A stretch of 64,000 nucleotides of DNA from Deltaproteobacteria bacterium. Its GTDB lineage: Bacteria; Desulfobacterota; DSM-4660; Desulfatiglandales; HGW-15. The translations under genes were made by a program, and so were the position numbers. Each line of letters starts with the position of its first letter. Position 1 is the first letter of the stretch. A model generated the notes under the pieces. It did no database searches and was not told the DNA's origin. It was given only the letters and a program-made list of their open reading frames with translations. Of the stretch, positions 15,997 to 27,503 are shown one piece after another. Where the stretch lies: contig JAGVAP010000053.1 in assembly GCA_020060215.1 (NCBI GenBank), forward strand, positions 62,001-126,000, read 5' to 3'.

Positions 15997-17421
15997 TTAG
16001 ATGTCGTAGTACAGCGCGAACTCCCAGGGATGCGGCCGGAGGTCCACTGCGATGACCTCTTTCTCCATCTTGTAGGAGATCCACGTCTCGATCACATCGG
16101 ATGTAAAGACGTCCCCTTTCAGGAGGTAGTCGTGGTCCGCCTCCAGGGCCTTCAATGCTTCCCTGAGAGACCCGGGGGTGTGGGGGACCCTCTCCAGCTC
16201 TTCCGGGGGAAGATCATAGATGTCCTTGTCCAGCGGTTCGCCGGGATGGATCTTCTTCTGTATCCCGTCCAGCGCCGCCATCAGAATGGCGGAGAAGGCA
16301 AGATAGGGGTTGCAGCTCGGGTCCGGGCAGCGGAATTCGATCCGCTTGGCCTTGGGTGAGGACGAGTAAAGGGGTATCCTGACCGCGGCGCTCCGGTTCC
16401 TCCTGGAGTAGGCGAGGTTCACCGGGGCCTCGAAACCCGGAACCAGTCTCTTGTAGCTGTTCGTGGTCGGGGAGGTGAAGGCCAGGAGGGAGGGCGCATG
16501 CTTCAGGATGCCTCCAATGGCATGAAGGGCCATTTCAGACAGCCCCGCGTAGCCGTTTCCCGCAAAGAGATTCTGGCCGCCCCTCCAGAGTGAGACATGG
16601 ACGTGCATGCCGCTTCCGTTGTCGCCGTAAAGGGGCTTGGGCATGAAGGTGACGGTCTTCCCGTGCTTCCTGGCCGTATTCTTGATGACATACTTGTACT
16701 TCAGCATGTTGTCCGCCATCTGGATCAGGGGCGCGAACCGCATATCGATCTCCGCCTGGCCGGCCGTGGCGACCTCGTGGTGCTGAGCCTCGATCTGAAT
16801 GCCGATCTTTTCCAGGTTCAGCAGCATCTCGCTTCGGAGATCCTGCTGACTGTCCGCCGGCGGCACAGGAAAGTACCCTTCCTTGTAGCGGATCTTGTAA
16901 CCAAGATTGGGGCTTTCCGCACGGCCTGCATTCCACCGGCCTTCCACGCTGTCGATGTGGTAGTACCCCTCATGCTCGTTCTGGTCGAACCGGATGTCGT
17001 CGAAGATGAAGAATTCCGCTTCCGGCCCGAAATAGGCGATCTCCGCGATCCCCGAACGCTGCAGATAGCTTTCCGCCTTTCTGGTGATGTTTCTCGGATC
17101 ACGGGTATAGTCCTCCCCGGTCACGGGGTCTGCAATGTTGCAGATGATCACCATCGTCTTGGCCTGCAGAAAAGGATCGATGAAGGCCGTCTCGGCTACG
17201 GGCTTTACGAGCATGTCCGACTCATTGATCACCTGCCACCCCCTGATGCTCGAACCATCGAATCCAAGACCGCTTTCAAATGTCTCCTCGTCCACTTCCC
17301 GGGCCGGAATGGAGAAATGCTGCCATAGCCCCGGAAAGTCCATGAATCTGAGGTCGACGATCTCCACGCCTTCCCGTTTGATCATCCCGAGGACATCCTT
17401 TGCCGCCATTTTGTCACCCAT
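15997..17421 (-). CDS. glnA: Glutamine synthetase type I (adenylylatable)
   Basis: GlnA makes glutamine from glutamate, ammonia and ATP. The 474-residue protein has [36 protein letters not shown], the ATP-loop [22 protein letters not shown], and Tyr402 in [10 protein letters not shown], the adenylylation site known from enteric GlnA. The ATG at 17421 has GGGAGGG just upstream. glnE lies directly downstream, and a sigma-54 promoter with a possible upstream activator site lies upstream. Together these indicate nitrogen-responsive transcription plus covalent control of the enzyme. Confidence 0.97.
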
Positions 17422-20886: not shown

Positions 20887-23055
20887 ATGAACTGGAAGGA
20901 ACGCGTATACTGCGGTGAACTGCGTCGATCCCATGCAGGACAAGAGGTCCTGCTCATGGGGTGGGTAGACGCCATCCGGGATCACGGAAACCTGCTTTTC
21001 GTGCATCTGCGCGATGTCCGGGGGATCGTCCAGGTGGTTTTCGATCCGGCATTCGGATCCACCGCTTGTGCGGCCGCATCCTCCATCCGGGAGGAGTACG
21101 TCGTAGAGATCAGGGGCAAGGTGTCGGTCCGCTCCCCTGGCACTGAAAACCCCAACCTGCACACCGGCGAGGTGGAGGTGTTTGTCCGCCGTCTCGAAAT
21201 CCTCTCCGAGTCCAGGACCCTGCCCTTCCCCATCTCGGAAAAGGCCATGGTCTTCGGAGAAGAGCTCAAGTCCAACCCTGCAAATGTGGACGAAGACCTC
21301 AGGCTCCGCTACAGATACCTCGACCTGCGGCGGCCCTCCATGCAGGAGTTTTTCCTCAAGAGATACGAAATCGTCAGGACCATCCGGGACTACCTCCATT
21401 CCCGGAACTTCATCGAGGTGGAGACACCCGTCCTCACCAAGAGCACCCCCGAAGGCGCAAGGGACTACCTCGTGCCCAGCAGGGTCCACCACGGGAGGTT
21501 CTATGCCCTGCCCCAGTCCCCGCAGCTGTTCAAACAGCTGATCATGATGGCGGGCATGGATCGCTATTTTCAGATCGTGAAGTGTTTCAGGGACGAGGAC
21601 CTCCGACCCAACCGGCAGCCCGAGTTCACCCAGCTCGACATGGAGGCTTCCTTCATCGACGAGGAGTTCATCTATGAGATTGTGGAGGACCTGACCGCCC
21701 GTATCTTCGCGATCGGCTCCATCCAACTGCCGAGGCCGTTCCCCCGGATGGCCTATCAGGAGGCCATGGAACGCTACGGATCCGACCGGCCCGATGTCCG
21801 GTTCGACATGGCCTTCGAGGAGATCACGGATCTCCTCCAGGGTACGGGTTACGCCATCTTCAGGCAGATCCTCGGGCAGGGAGGGCTGGTCAAGGGGTTC
21901 TGTGTCAGGGGACGGGGCGATGCGCTCAGCAAGAACGTCCTCCAGAACGAATACGCCATGAAGATCGCGCCCGAGATGGGCGCCAAGGGCATGACCTGGA
22001 TGAAGGTGGTGGACGGCAGGCTCCAGTCGAACATTGCGCAGTTTTTCAGCCGTGCGGAGCTGGAAGGGATCATGGCCCGGTTCAGGGCGGAGGAGGGGGA
22101 CGTGCTGGTGATGATCGCCGATACGTCCCGCGACCTCGTCAACCGGGTGCTCTCGCAGTTGAGGCTCCACATGGCCGAGCGGCTGAAGCTGGTCCCGGCC
22201 GACCGGTTCAGCCCCCTGTGGGTGACCGACTTCCCGCTCTTCGAGTCCAAGGAGGATGGGCTCGGCTCCCAGCACCATCCCTTCACGATGCCGGACAGGG
22301 ACGACTTCGACCCATCGAACAGGGAGGAGCTGCTCAGCCTGCGCTCCAGGGCCTATGACCTCGTGATGAACGGGGAGGAACTGGGGGGCGGGTCCATCCG
22401 GATACACCGGATGGACGTCCAGCAGAAGATCTTCCAGGCCCTGGGACTGGAACCCCGGGAGGTGGAGGCGAAGTTCGGGTTCTTCCTGAGGGCCCTGGAA
22501 TACGGGGCGCCTCCCCACGGCGGCCTTGCGCTCGGACTGGACAGGGTCGTTGCCATGATCCTGAGGGTGGACTCCATACGAGACGTGATCTCCTTTCCCA
22601 AGAACCGGAGCGCGGTATGCCCCCTGACCGAGGCGCCCTCCCTGGTGGAGAGCTGTCAGCTGAAGGAACTCGGCCTCCAGGGCACCGGCCCTGAGGAGGG
22701 AGCGGCCGAATCCGTGCACGGCTCCGAAGCGGGGAAGCGACGAGGTTCCGCCGCGGGGACCGGACAAAGGATCTCGATCGAAGAGGTCAAGCACGTGGCA
22801 CGGCTTGCCAGGATGAGGATCTCCCACGAGGAGGCCCTCTCATACCAGCGGGAGCTGAACGCCGTCCTGAATCACTTCGAAACCCTCCAGTCCCTCCATT
22901 CCGAAGAGGTAGCCCCCATGAGCCAGGTCCTCAAGACCTCCAACGTCTGGAGGGAGGATCGCCCCGGGGAGAAGAAGGAAACCGCATCTCTGCTCGAGGC
23001 TGCGCCCGAGCGGGAGAAGGATTTTTACAGGGTCCCCAGGATCCTGGAAGGGTGA
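20887..23055 (+). CDS. aspS: Aspartyl-tRNA synthetase fused to GatC
   Basis: Residues 1-~600 are a bacterial AspRS: an OB-fold anticodon domain (GWVDAIRDHGNLLFVHLRD), class II motif 2 (FRDEDLRPNRQPEFTQLD), a GAD insertion and motif 3 (GGLALGLDRVVAM). After a Gly/Glu/Ser-rich linker, residues 629-722 are a complete GatC (VKHVARLARMRISHEEALSY, MSQVLKTSNVWREDRPGE, FYRVPRILEG). GatC is the small subunit of the Asp/Glu-tRNA amidotransferase. gatA follows immediately and gatB after it, and no separate gatC is seen. His33 and the SPGTENPN segment match residues linked to non-discriminating AspRS in Pseudomonas. Misacylated Asp-tRNA(Asn) could therefore be amidated by the tethered complex. Confidence 0.93.
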   Translation: MNWKERVYCGELRRSHAGQEVLLMGWVDAIRDHGNLLFVHLRDVRGIVQVVFDPAFGSTACAAASSIREEYVVEIRGKVSVRSPGTENPNLHTGEVEVFVRRLEILSESRTLPFPISEKAMVFGEELKSNPANVDEDLRLRYRYLDLRRPSMQEFFLKRYEIVRTIRDYLHSRNFIEVETPVLTKSTPEGARDYLVPSRVHHGRFYALPQSPQLFKQLIMMAGMDRYFQIVKCFRDEDLRPNRQPEFTQLDMEASFIDEEFIYEIVEDLTARIFAIGSIQLPRPFPRMAYQEAMERYGSDRPDVRFDMAFEEITDLLQGTGYAIFRQILGQGGLVKGFCVRGRGDALSKNVLQNEYAMKIAPEMGAKGMTWMKVVDGRLQSNIAQFFSRAELEGIMARFRAEEGDVLVMIADTSRDLVNRVLSQLRLHMAERLKLVPADRFSPLWVTDFPLFESKEDGLGSQHHPFTMPDRDDFDPSNREELLSLRSRAYDLVMNGEELGGGSIRIHRMDVQQKIFQALGLEPREVEAKFGFFLRALEYGAPPHGGLALGLDRVVAMILRVDSIRDVISFPKNRSAVCPLTEAPSLVESCQLKELGLQGTGPEEGAAESVHGSEAGKRRGSAAGTGQRISIEEVKHVARLARMRISHEEALSYQRELNAVLNHFETLQSLHSEEVAPMSQVLKTSNVWREDRPGEKKETASLLEAAPEREKDFYRVPRILEG

Positions 23056-23057
23056 AG

Positions 23058-24542
23058 ATGGAACTCTGTGACCGCACGGCCGCCGAATTGGCCCTCATGC
23101 TCAGGAAGGGAGAGGTCCGTTCCAGGGAGATCGCCGAGTCTGTCTTCAGGAGGATCGAGGAGAAGGAAAAGACCATCCACGCCTATATCAGCCTGACTGC
23201 CGACATCGCCATGAAACAGGCCGATCAGGCGGATCTTCGTCTCGGAAGGGGAGCACCTTCGTCCATCCTGGACGGCATTCCGGTTGCGGTGAAGGACAAC
23301 ATCTGCACGAGGGGTGTTCGGACCACCTGCGGGTCGAAGATCCTGGAGAACTACATCCCCCCATACGATGCCACGGCCGTCACCAGGACGTTGGAGGGGG
23401 GCGCCGTGTTGACGGGTAAGACCAACATGGATGAGTTCGGTATGGGCTCTTCGACCGAGACCAGCGGTTTCGGCCCGACGCGCAACCCCTGGAACCCGGA
23501 ACTGGTTCCCGGAGGTTCGAGCGGGGGCTCCGCTGCGGCCGTGGCTGCGGGGGAGAGCATCCTTGCCCTGGGCACGGACACAGGCGGCTCCATTCGCCTC
23601 CCGGCAGCCTACTGCGGGGTGGTCGGGATCAAACCCACCTATGGGATGGTCTCCCGCTACGGGCTGGTCTCCTATGCCTCCTCCCTCGATCAGGTGGGCG
23701 CCATAGGGAGAAGCGTGGAAGACTGCGCACTGCTCCTCAAGCTCATCTGCGGTCACGATCCGAAGGACAGCACCTCTTCTCCCGTCGAGGTCCGGGACCT
23801 CCTGACCTCCCTGAAAAAAGGGATCGATGGCATCCGGATCGGTCTGCCTGAAGAGTACTTGGTGGAAGGCCTGGATCCGAGGGTCAAGGAGCTGATCCTG
23901 CAGTCGGCCTCCCTCCTCGAGCGGAACGGCGCAAGGGTGGTCGAGTGTTCGCTCCCCCATGCCCGTCACGCCATCAGCGCCTATTACCTGATCGCGACGG
24001 CCGAGGCCAGCAGCAACCTGGCCCGTTACGACGGGGTCAAGTACGGGTTCCGGTCCGAGGAAGCGAGCGAAACGATCCAGATGTACGAGCTCACCAGGAG
24101 CGCCGGCTTCGGGCGGGAGGTGAAGAGGCGCATCATGCTCGGGACCTATGCCCTCTCCGCCGGGTACTACGATGCATACTACCTCAAGGCCCAGGAGGCG
24201 CGAGCCCTGATCCGGAGGGACTTCGACAAGGTATTCGAGCAGGTGGACGGGCTCATCGGGCCCGTCTCTCCATCCCTCCCGTTCAGGCTTGGAGAGAAGG
24301 CCGATGATCCGCTCCAGATGTATCTGGTGGATGTCTACACGGTCTCCGTCAATCTTGCCGGCCTCCCGGCCATGAGCATCCCCTGCGGCGCGGTGGACGG
24401 CCTCCCCGCAGGGATGCAGATCATCGGCCGGCCCTTTGACGAGGAGACGCTGCTCAGGATCGGGTACGCCTACGAACAGCTGAAGAATGGAACCCGCCAC
24501 CAAGACGCAAAGACACAAAGAACATCATTGAGCCTTTCCTAG
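23058..24542 (+). CDS. gatA: Asp-tRNA(Asn)/Glu-tRNA(Gln) amidotransferase subunit A
   Basis: GatA is the amidase subunit that releases ammonia from glutamine. It has the amidase-signature Lys (IPVAVKDNICTRGVRTTCGS), the Gly/Ser loop (GGSSGGSAAAVAAG) and the nucleophilic Ser region (GTDTGGSIRLPAAYCGVVG). ATG at 23058 follows the aspS-gatC stop by two bases; a GTG at 23052 is possible. The last ~15 residues (RHQDAKTQRTSLSLS) are encoded by a dispersed inverted repeat, so the native end was probably near residue 478. Confidence 0.95.
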   Translation: MELCDRTAAELALMLRKGEVRSREIAESVFRRIEEKEKTIHAYISLTADIAMKQADQADLRLGRGAPSSILDGIPVAVKDNICTRGVRTTCGSKILENYIPPYDATAVTRTLEGGAVLTGKTNMDEFGMGSSTETSGFGPTRNPWNPELVPGGSSGGSAAAVAAGESILALGTDTGGSIRLPAAYCGVVGIKPTYGMVSRYGLVSYASSLDQVGAIGRSVEDCALLLKLICGHDPKDSTSSPVEVRDLLTSLKKGIDGIRIGLPEEYLVEGLDPRVKELILQSASLLERNGARVVECSLPHARHAISAYYLIATAEASSNLARYDGVKYGFRSEEASETIQMYELTRSAGFGREVKRRIMLGTYALSAGYYDAYYLKAQEARALIRRDFDKVFEQVDGLIGPVSPSLPFRLGEKADDPLQMYLVDVYTVSVNLAGLPAMSIPCGAVDGLPAGMQIIGRPFDEETLLRIGYAYEQLKNGTRHQDAKTQRTSLSLS

Positions 24543-24589: not shown

Positions 24590-26059
24590 ATGGAATACGA
24601 GATCATCATAGCTTTCGAAACCCACGTCGAGCTGAAGACCGAGACCAAGCTCTTCTGCGACTGTGCCGTCCTCTACGACGCTCCTCCGAACAGCAGCATC
24701 TGCCCGGTCTGCACGGGCCAGCCCGGCTCCCTGCCTGTCCTGAACAAGAGGGCCGTGGAATACGCCGTCAAGGCAGGCCTTGCCCTGCACTGTAGTCCAA
24801 ACCCCGTCTCGCGTTTTGCCCGGAAAAACTATTTCTATCCGGACCTTCCCAAGGGGTATCAGATCTCCCAATACGAAAACCCCTTTTGTGAAAACGGCTA
24901 TCTGGAGATCTCCGGCGACGACGGGCGGCCCTACGAGGTGGGCATCAGGCGCATCCATCTGGAGGAGGACGCCGGGAAGCTGGTCCACTCCTCGGGCTCG
25001 GTGGGATCTTCCGATTTCAGCCTGGTGGATTACAACAGGGCCGGTGTCCCCCTCCTGGAGATCGTGGGGGACCACGAACGAAATCCCATTCGTTCGATCC
25101 AGGAGGCGCGGACCTATCTGGAAAAGCTCAGGCAGACCCTCCGCTATATCGGGGTCAGCGACTGCACCATCGAAAAGGGCCAGTTCCGGTGCGACGTGAA
25201 CGTCTCCCTGCGGCCGCGGGGTGTCCGGGGGTTCGGGCCGCGCGCAGAGATCAAGAACATGGGATCTTTCAGGTTCATCGCCGATGCCCTGGAGTATGAG
25301 GTCAAGAGGCAGTCCGAGATCCTGGAATCCGGGCGAGAGATCACCCAGGAGACGCGGCTCTTCGATGAACAGCGGAAGATCACCCTCCCCATGCGCAGCA
25401 AGGAGAACGCTCCGGACTATCGCTATTTCCCGGATCCCGACCTGGTCGAGGTGGTCGTGGACGAGGAGTTGATCGGAAGGATCAGGGGTTCTCTCCCCGA
25501 ACTGCCCGATCAGAAGGTGATCCGCCTGACCGAGGAGTACGGCATTCCGCGGGAGGACGTCCTCATCCTCACCCGGGAGCGGGAGATCTCGGACTTTTTT
25601 CTGGCATGCGCCACCCTTTGCCGGGACAGGAACCGTCTGAGCCGCTGGACTATCCGCGATCTCTTCAAGCTCCTGAAAGAGACGCGCCGCAGCATATCCG
25701 ATTGCCCCCTGAGCCCGAAGGCCTTTGCCGAGTTGATCAACCTCCTGGAAGAGGGCAAGGTCACGGACAGCATGGGACGATCCATGCTGAAAAAGATGTT
25801 CGATCAGGGGTGCGGCCCGGGCGAGATCTTGGGAAAGGAAGACACGGGGCCCATCAGGGATGCGGATACGCTCCTGGCCATGGTGGAAGATGTCGTGGAC
25901 GGTCATCCTGAAGCGGTCGCCAAGATCGGCAAAGGCATGATGGAGCCGGTCAACTTCCTGGTCGGGCAGGTCATGCGGAAGACGCGCGGCAAGGCGGACC
26001 CCAAGCGGGTGCGCGACCTGATCCAGCAGAAACTGGGCCTCACCCACGACGGCTCCTGA
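24590..26059 (+). CDS. gatB: Asp-tRNA(Asn)/Glu-tRNA(Gln) amidotransferase subunit B
   Basis: GatB is the kinase/transamidase subunit that activates the side-chain carboxylate of misacylated tRNA. The 489 residues show the cradle domain (FETHVELKTETKLFCDC, SSICPVCTGQPGSLPVLN, with four zinc-site cysteines), FARKNYFYPDLPKGYQISQY, and the C-terminal helical/YqeY-like tail (MMEPVNFLVGQVMRKTRGKADP). It is the last gene of the aspS-gatC, gatA, gatB unit, separated from gatA by a repeat element. Confidence 0.96.
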   Translation: MEYEIIIAFETHVELKTETKLFCDCAVLYDAPPNSSICPVCTGQPGSLPVLNKRAVEYAVKAGLALHCSPNPVSRFARKNYFYPDLPKGYQISQYENPFCENGYLEISGDDGRPYEVGIRRIHLEEDAGKLVHSSGSVGSSDFSLVDYNRAGVPLLEIVGDHERNPIRSIQEARTYLEKLRQTLRYIGVSDCTIEKGQFRCDVNVSLRPRGVRGFGPRAEIKNMGSFRFIADALEYEVKRQSEILESGREITQETRLFDEQRKITLPMRSKENAPDYRYFPDPDLVEVVVDEELIGRIRGSLPELPDQKVIRLTEEYGIPREDVLILTREREISDFFLACATLCRDRNRLSRWTIRDLFKLLKETRRSISDCPLSPKAFAELINLLEEGKVTDSMGRSMLKKMFDQGCGPGEILGKEDTGPIRDADTLLAMVEDVVDGHPEAVAKIGKGMMEPVNFLVGQVMRKTRGKADPKRVRDLIQQKLGLTHDGS

Positions 26060-26174: not shown

Positions 26175-27503
26175 TTAGAGCTTTGGAAGATAGCGCTCGA
26201 TCTCGAACGCGCTCACGTGGGTCCTGTAGCGATCCCACTCGATCTTCTTGTTCTCGATGAACTTGTTGAAGATGTGATCCCCCAGGATCTCCCTGACCAG
26301 CGTGCTCTTTTCCGTCTCCAGGATGGCTGCGTAGAGATTTCCGGGCAGATCCGTGATCCCGTGCGCCCTGCGCTCGGCAGGATTCATCTCGAAGATATCT
26401 TCCTCGATGGGTGCGGGGATCTCCATCTCTTTCTCGATGCCGTCCATCCCGGCCCCCAGCATGACGGCAAAGGCCAGGTAGGGGTTGCAGGCCGGATCCG
26501 GAGACCTGAGTTCGATCCTCGTGGCCATCTCCTTCCCCGGCTTGTACATGGGCACCCGGATCATGGTGGAGCGGTTCCTGCGCGCCCAGGAGACATACAC
26601 GGGCGCCTCGTACCCGGGCACAAGTCGTTTGTACGAATTCACCCACTGGTTGGTGATGGCCGTGAGCTCCGGGGCGTGGCGGATCAGGCCGGCGATATAG
26701 TGCTTTGCCGCGGACGACAGGTGGTACTGGTCCTTTGGATCGTAGAAGGCGTTCTTATCTCCTATGAACAGAGACTGGTGCACGTGCATGCCGCTTCCAT
26801 TCTGACCGAAGATCGGCTTGGGCATGAAGGTCGCATACACCCCGTTCTTCCTCGCAATCTCCTTGACCACCAGCCGGTAGGTCATGGTCTTGTCCGCCAT
26901 CCTGAGCCCTTCGTCATAGCGGAGATCGATCTCGTGCTGGCTGGGGGCGACCTCGTGATGGCTGTATTCGACCTGGATACCCATGGACTGCAGGGCAAAG
27001 ATCGTCTCCCTGCGGAGATCGCTGGCCATATCCAGCGGCCGTGCATCGAAGTACCCTCCCGCATCCAGGACGTCCGTGCATCGGCTGTCCTTGAAATAGA
27101 AGTACTCGAGCTCCGGCCCCACAAAGAACTTGTAGCCCTTCTCGGCGATCCTGCGCAGGAGCCTCTTGAACACATATCGAGGATCCCCCTCATAAGGGGA
27201 TCCGTCGGGGTTCAGGATATCGCAAAACATCCGCGCGACCGGCCTGTCCTCGCCCCGCCAGGGCACCAGTTGAAAGGTCGTGGGATCGGGCTTGGCGATC
27301 ATGTCGCTCTCCTGGATCCTGGCAAAGCCTTCCACGGAAGAGCCGTCAAACCCCATCCCTTCGCTCATCCCCTCCGCCAGCTCCGAAGGGGTCACGGCGA
27401 AGCTCTTGAGAAAACCGAGCACGTCGGTGAACCAGAACTGGATGAAGCTGATCTCCTTGTCTCGTACGATCTTCTGGACCTCTTCCGCGCTATGGCAATC
27501 CAT
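26175..27503 (-). CDS. glnA: Second glutamine synthetase (type I, non-adenylylated form)
   Basis: The 442-residue protein has all GS-I signatures ([52 protein letters not shown]). It lacks the adenylylation tyrosine: the equivalent segment reads EEDIFEMNPAERR, with Phe in place of Tyr. It is shorter than the 474-residue GlnA at 15997-17421 and resembles the GSI-alpha type, which is usually controlled by feedback rather than GlnE. It converges with gatB. No sigma-54 box was found upstream. Confidence 0.94.
   Translation of the reverse strand: MDCHSAEEVQKIVRDKEISFIQFWFTDVLGFLKSFAVTPSELAEGMSEGMGFDGSSVEGFARIQESDMIAKPDPTTFQLVPWRGEDRPVARMFCDILNPDGSPYEGDPRYVFKRLLRRIAEKGYKFFVGPELEYFYFKDSRCTDVLDAGGYFDARPLDMASDLRRETIFALQSMGIQVEYSHHEVAPSQHEIDLRYDEGLRMADKTMTYRLVVKEIARKNGVYATFMPKPIFGQNGSGMHVHQSLFIGDKNAFYDPKDQYHLSSAAKHYIAGLIRHAPELTAITNQWVNSYKRLVPGYEAPVYVSWARRNRSTMIRVPMYKPGKEMATRIELRSPDPACNPYLAFAVMLGAGMDGIEKEMEIPAPIEEDIFEMNPAERRAHGITDLPGNLYAAILETEKSTLVREILGDHIFNKFIENKKIEWDRYRTHVSAFEIERYLPKL

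Follow-up and report, generated by a model that had tools for sequence, protein, structure and literature searches.

An aspartyl-tRNA synthetase fused to GatC in Thermodesulfobacteriota, a candidate covalent transamidosome

Results

The DNA analyzed here is a stretch of 64,000 nucleotides, referred to as the window. Positions 20887 to 23055 of its plus strand form a single open frame of 722 codons plus a stop, which encodes an aspartyl-tRNA synthetase (AspRS) joined through a linker to GatC. The features of the locus are as follows.

20887..23055, plus strand: aspS-gatC fusion gene, 722 aa
20887..22680, plus strand: AspRS part, residues 1-598 (OB fold, catalytic domain, GAD insertion)
20983..20985, plus strand: codon of His33 (in RDHG) of the AspRS OB fold
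21583..21636, plus strand: motif 2 stretch CFRDEDLRPNRQPEFTQL, which contains RPN
22681..22770, plus strand: linker, residues 599-628
22771..23052, plus strand: GatC part, residues 629-722
23052..24542, plus strand: gatA; its GTG start at 23052 overlaps the stop of the fusion, and an alternative ATG lies at 23058
24590..26059, plus strand: gatB, with the YRYFPDPDL motif

The first-pass annotation had read a complete AspRS, a linker, and a complete GatC in one continuous frame from the sequence, and domain models confirm this reading with scores over their cutoffs. Pfam identifies an OB fold (residues 21-106), a class II DKN catalytic domain (135-574), a bacterial GAD insertion (PF02938, 325-421; 64.2 bits against a cutoff of 23.4), and GatC (PF02686, 645-716; 55.3 bits against a cutoff of 23). 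The NCBIfam gatC model TIGR00135 is covered end to end by residues 629-721 (80.8 bits against a cutoff of 47.1), and TIGR00459 (aspS_bact) scores 699.7 bits against a cutoff of 373.85, which marks the synthetase as bacterial type; the archaeal-type AspRS model TIGR00458 yields 226 bits, under its cutoff of 368.4. The GatC part also aligns almost end to end with the GatC chains of the structures 3h0l, 2df4, 4wj3, and 3kfu. An AlphaFold model of the fusion, built from 32 close sequences, has a mean pLDDT of 67.6, too poor for use on docking, with values below 50 at linker residues 599-626 and GatC residues 673-722.

The downstream genes on the same strand are gatA and gatB, as annotated, and both exceed their NCBIfam cutoffs (TIGR00132, 620.9 bits against 481.1; TIGR00133, 535 bits against 314.8). 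Translated from the alternative gatA start, the protein would begin like its homologues, with a MELCD-like sequence. GatA in the window retains K81, S156-S157, and S180, which we take to be the catalytic amidase residues. No tRNA genes were found in the 64,000-nucleotide window. Two glutamine synthetase-like genes, read by eye, flank the region on the minus strand (15997-17421 and 26175-27503); glutamine supplies the amide group for GatCAB.

A protein search with residues 622-722, limited to proteins of 0.55 to 1.75 times the length of the fusion, recovered 34 proteins including the window's own, and each of the 34 is listed as having both a GatC and a class II synthetase domain. Their source names include Desulfobacteraceae, Deltaproteobacteria, Thermodesulfobacteriota, and Desulfatiglans anilini; a search of viral contigs for the fusion gave no match. 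We aligned 32 of the 34 fusions, leaving out two shorter proteins (414 and 524 aa). Mean pairwise identity is 72% in the AspRS part and 60% in GatC but only 12% in the linker, which nevertheless measures 25 to 30 residues in every aligned protein. What is conserved in this tether is its length rather than its sequence. His33 is present in all 32.

We also searched 395 genomes drawn evenly from the phylum of G001, a genome labeled Thermodesulfobacteriota. Scoring covered the top two candidates of each genome, and the counts of fusion types given here are lower bounds. An intact fusion occurs in at least 8 of the 395, at full length in seven (G189, G334, G137, G213, G296, G075, and G390) and cut by a contig end, with its N terminus missing, in the eighth (G256). 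Together with the 33 further protein clusters, these genomes answer the search for AspRS-GatC fusions in relatives that had been proposed from the window. A 743-codon frame in G134 was excluded from the counts, as its GatC, inspected by eye, reads as a free gene behind a spurious frame. A second type of locus, found in at least 16 of the 395 genomes, encodes an AspRS that is 57 to 66% identical to that of the window but whose tail matches GatC poorly. We refer to it as the decayed-tail type (G002, G180, G302, G256, G299, G172, G072, G001, G098, G166, G345, G332, G213, G233, G309, and G257). Two genomes carry both types, giving at least 22 altogether. Each of these two, G213 (L224, L229, and L150) and G256 (L238, L230, and L149), holds three AspRSs: an ordinary one, an intact fusion, and a decayed-tail form accompanied by GatA- and GatB-like genes of its own.

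A quick tree of 75 AspRSs places the intact and decayed-tail types in one clade (support, 100) on a long stem; inside it, support is 89 for the intact type and 99 for the decayed-tail type. The AspRS of G189 equals the Desulfatiglans anilini protein P0022 over the columns retained in this tree.

The first-pass annotation had proposed that the fusion covalently tethers AspRS to GatCAB. The gene complement of the eight intact-fusion genomes supports this: none of them has an intact GatC (PF02686) other than the fused domain, G213 having in addition a decayed GatC-like tail, and gatA directly follows the fusion in all eight. The second intact gatC that could have made the fused domain redundant is thus absent from these relatives. 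All eight genomes also encode a second, ordinary AspRS, and AsnRS, GlnRS, and an AsnB-like gene score over their cutoffs in each, although the AsnB-like count includes possible paralogues. AsnA is over its cutoff in two of the eight and under it in one more. The completeness of these genomes is unstated; G334 is the best case, with its fusion, second AspRS, AsnRS, GlnRS, and AsnA all matched on a single contig of 4,801,105 bases (4.8 Mb).

This complement bears on what the route can be for. The presence of GlnRS in all eight genomes means that GatCAB is unneeded for Gln-tRNA, and we set that role aside. A separate asnS, also proposed as something to look for, is present in all eight relatives; the tether reading stands, but the route is not obligate for Asn-tRNA. 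With AsnRS, GlnRS, and AsnB-like genes throughout, nothing obliges these cells to make Asn-tRNA via the fusion, and the AsnB-like genes led us to reject the fusion as the sole route to asparagine. A pattern search found a tRNA(Asn) with U1-A72 and G73 in six of the eight genomes and had no match in G296 and G390. U1-A72 is reported to be the pair recognized by bacterial GatCAB (PMC4206432).

Further support for the tether comes from the synthetase itself. In the sampled genomes, the seven fusions in which residue 33 can be read all have His there (with RNHG as the local sequence in G075), the eighth lacking its N terminus, whereas the ordinary AspRSs of the eight genomes have Leu (7) or Phe (1). 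Seven of the eight genomes therefore combine a His-type fusion with an ordinary AspRS that lacks this His. The same position is His in the Pseudomonas aeruginosa AspRS (4wj3_M), deposited in 4wj3 as an Asp/Asn ligase, and Leu in the Escherichia coli and Thermus thermophilus AspRSs; from work on the P. aeruginosa enzyme, we take it to bear on tRNA(Asn) acceptance. By this residue the fusion is a candidate non-discriminating bacterial AspRS. His also occurs, however, in 8 of the 12 complete ordinary AspRSs of the 14 genomes that have the decayed-tail type alone, and the signature residue is therefore a correlate only. Motif 2 reads RPN in the window, in all 8 intact fusions, and in all 16 decayed-tail AspRSs, where the ordinary AspRSs shown read RAD or something close to it. 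Because tRNA(Asp) and tRNA(Asn) differ at the acceptor end, close to which this loop sits, RPN might alter which tRNA is preferred.

The decayed-tail AspRS heads a sister operon, which is absent from the window.

L001:5767-10617: sister operon (further loci, L229, L231, L235, and L236)

A profile of the 16 decayed tails matches the fused-GatC profile with 96.3% probability over 85 columns, and PF02686 weakly matches 8 of the 16 tails, seven over the cutoff and one under it. In all 16 loci the AspRS is followed by a GatA-like gene whose product is 28 to 31% identical to GatA of the window, and in all 16 genomes a GatB match adjoins that gene on the same contig; the GatB-like gene of G256 (L230) is broken by a TAG stop. 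Full-length comparisons give 36 to 40% identity between GatB-like proteins and GatB of the window. The GatB-like proteins form one clade, and the sister relation of the two types' GatBs is weakly supported (56/25). YRYFPDPDL is absent from the six GatB-like proteins compared and present in the five intact ones. The genomes with only the decayed-tail type differ in complement as well: all 14 have a free gatC, 11 have GlnRS, and AsnRS is over its cutoff in 2. Twelve of them have a complete ordinary AspRS; G001 has part of one, and in G002 the search found none.

The GatA-like protein of L001, used as a query, found 1320 proteins. Among the 120 of these that were listed, the catalytic Lys is Gln and the Ser-Ser stretch with the cis-Ser is deleted in every one, and the nucleophile Ser is Glu in 117 and Lys, Asp, or Asn in one each; these are counts of protein sequences, with the genomic neighborhood viewed for only a minority. 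The amidase residues are kept in all six intact GatAs compared and in that of the window. The regularity of the loss argues against simple decay. A GatA of the sister type should be unable to release ammonia from glutamine, and the operon looks like an amidotransferase without a glutaminase, perhaps a glutaminase-free relative of the transamidosome.

A separate AspRS-GatC fusion followed by gatA and gatB occurs in Bacillota, in an Oscillospiraceae genome (G003, L041:5920-8088; also L228). It is the only PF02686 match in that genome, which also has a second AspRS, AsnRS, GlnRS, and AsnA. Its AspRS has Met at the His33 position and RAD in motif 2, and it falls outside the window's clade in the tree of 75 AspRSs, on a long branch of unsure placement, so AspRS and GatC seem to have been joined at least twice. 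This fusion comprises two protein clusters and is clearly full length in only G003 of 21 genomes of its family. In another genome, L275 (G405) has a match, 25-722, to the Bacillota fusion with two TAG stops inside; it is perhaps an intermediate, with adjacent aspS and gatC in one frame.

Discussion

We consider it quite probable that the fusion is a dedicated second AspRS that forms Asp-tRNA(Asn) and whose C terminus is the GatC subunit of GatCAB. The AspRS half would charge tRNA(Asn) with aspartate, and GatA and GatB from the next two genes would assemble on the attached GatC, so that the flexible linker ties each amidotransferase to the synthetase supplying its substrate. The Asp-tRNA(Asn) could then be amidated to Asn-tRNA(Asn) inside the same particle, with channeling between the two sites, while the separate, ordinary AspRS would serve tRNA(Asp). 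The window's own organism presumably has the same gene complement as its relatives. The covalent joining makes it likely that AspRS, GatCAB, and tRNA(Asn) act as one particle, and the purpose of the fusion in these sulfate-reducer-like bacteria is probably to have the misloaded tRNA corrected before it escapes.

Three other explanations bear on the joined frame. A sequencing or assembly artefact, or a missed stop or frameshift between the two parts, is practically dismissed by independent copies: the fusion recurs in 33 other protein clusters from several sources and in seven full-length genome copies plus the one cut by a contig end. The fusion could instead be real and neutral, with a housekeeping, tRNA(Asp)-specific AspRS half on which GatC rides along while GatCAB serves tRNA(Gln) or tRNA(Asn) independently. 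Neighboring genes can fuse through the loss of a single stop codon, but an AspRS confined to tRNA(Asp) fits poorly with the ordinary enzyme without His present in all eight relatives, and GatCAB is not needed for Gln-tRNA in these eight, which all have GlnRS. The clade of fused AspRSs and their decayed-tail sisters is moreover set off by a long stem and an altered motif 2, and we regard neutral fusion as unlikely.

It is also conceivable that the polypeptide is cut, or that GatC is additionally initiated within the linker, leaving a free working GatC and no lasting tether. Codon 610 of the window's fusion is an in-frame GTG, preceded by an AGGAGG that ends 14 bases before it, and in-frame ATG, GTG, or TTG codons occur in the linker or close to it in four of seven relatives (G137, G296, G075, and G390). 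The positions differ among these four, however, which leaves no conserved start, and the stretch inspected in the remaining three (G189, G334, and G213) contains no in-frame ATG, GTG, or TTG. These starts bear on internal initiation; on proteolysis the sequence is silent. A free working GatC appears quite unlikely, and a lasting tether between the tRNA(Asn)-charging AspRS and GatCAB is the reading that we favor.

Judging from the sequences, a bolder extension is possible but doubtful. The fused AspRS may be specialized for tRNA(Asn), an aspartate analog of GluRS2, which serves tRNA(Gln) only, and an ancestral fused particle may have given rise to the sister machine, in which an AspRS with a GatC-like tail, a GatA without amidase residues, and a diverged GatB would use free ammonia to amidate Asp-tRNA or would attach another amine. 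The loss of the amidase residues hints at a version of the machine that works without a glutaminase.

Among transamidosomes, which are dynamic, a naturally covalent one would fix the partner of the amidotransferase and reveal which misacylated tRNA it serves. The fusion also offers a way to test why GatCAB is retained by bacteria with both AsnRS and GlnRS, a question posed for Bdellovibrio in PMC4206432.

The existence of the architecture is already known to annotation, since NCBI models it as a bifunctional AspRS/GatC (NF009460/PRK12820). This model is the best full-length match of the window's fusion, at 999.6 bits over model positions 18-723 of 723, which falls below the curated equivalog cutoff of 1379 bits. 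The decayed-tail protein of L001 scores 1234.1 bits, against 999.6, 990.4, and 961 for the three intact fusions scanned; the model thus seems to have been built nearer the decayed-tail type, and its name may promise a GatC that is partly lost in some members. No open-access title or abstract opening was found on an AspRS-GatC fusion, most subscription papers being outside this scope.

Chain C of the Thermotoga Gln-transamidosome crystal structure (3al0; match E value, 0.02), whose PDB name is GatC-linker-GluRS, likewise holds GatC, a linker, and a synthetase in one chain. Its synthetase is GluRS and its domain order is opposite, and whereas the window's fusion is natural, we take that of 3al0 to have been engineered for crystallization. 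Among natural joinings, Mycobacterium smegmatis has a gatC-gatA fusion that the title of the report connects with mistranslation (PMC7541841); there, too, GatC is joined to a partner from the same pathway, but the partner is GatA rather than AspRS. PMC8762117 reports further natural fusions, from other indirect tRNA routes.

The closest likenesses are to systems of separate chains. The Asn-transamidosome of P. aeruginosa (4wj3) shares with the fusion a bacterial-type AspRS, the same OB-fold His, a related GatC, and GatA and GatB. Its AspRS and GatC are separate chains, whereas in the fusion they are one polypeptide, whose relatives add a second AspRS and AsnRS. In gene complement, these relatives resemble T. 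thermophilus and Deinococcus radiodurans, which, according to PMC4206432 and PMC6523644, have two AspRSs, one of them for the indirect Asn route, and likewise keep the second AspRS with GatCAB beside AsnRS and GlnRS. The second AspRS of Thermus and Deinococcus is of the archaeal type, as stated in PMC4206432, and that of Thermus is separate from the GatC chain (3kfu), whereas the AspRS of the window is of the bacterial type, with a GAD insertion, and is fused to GatC.
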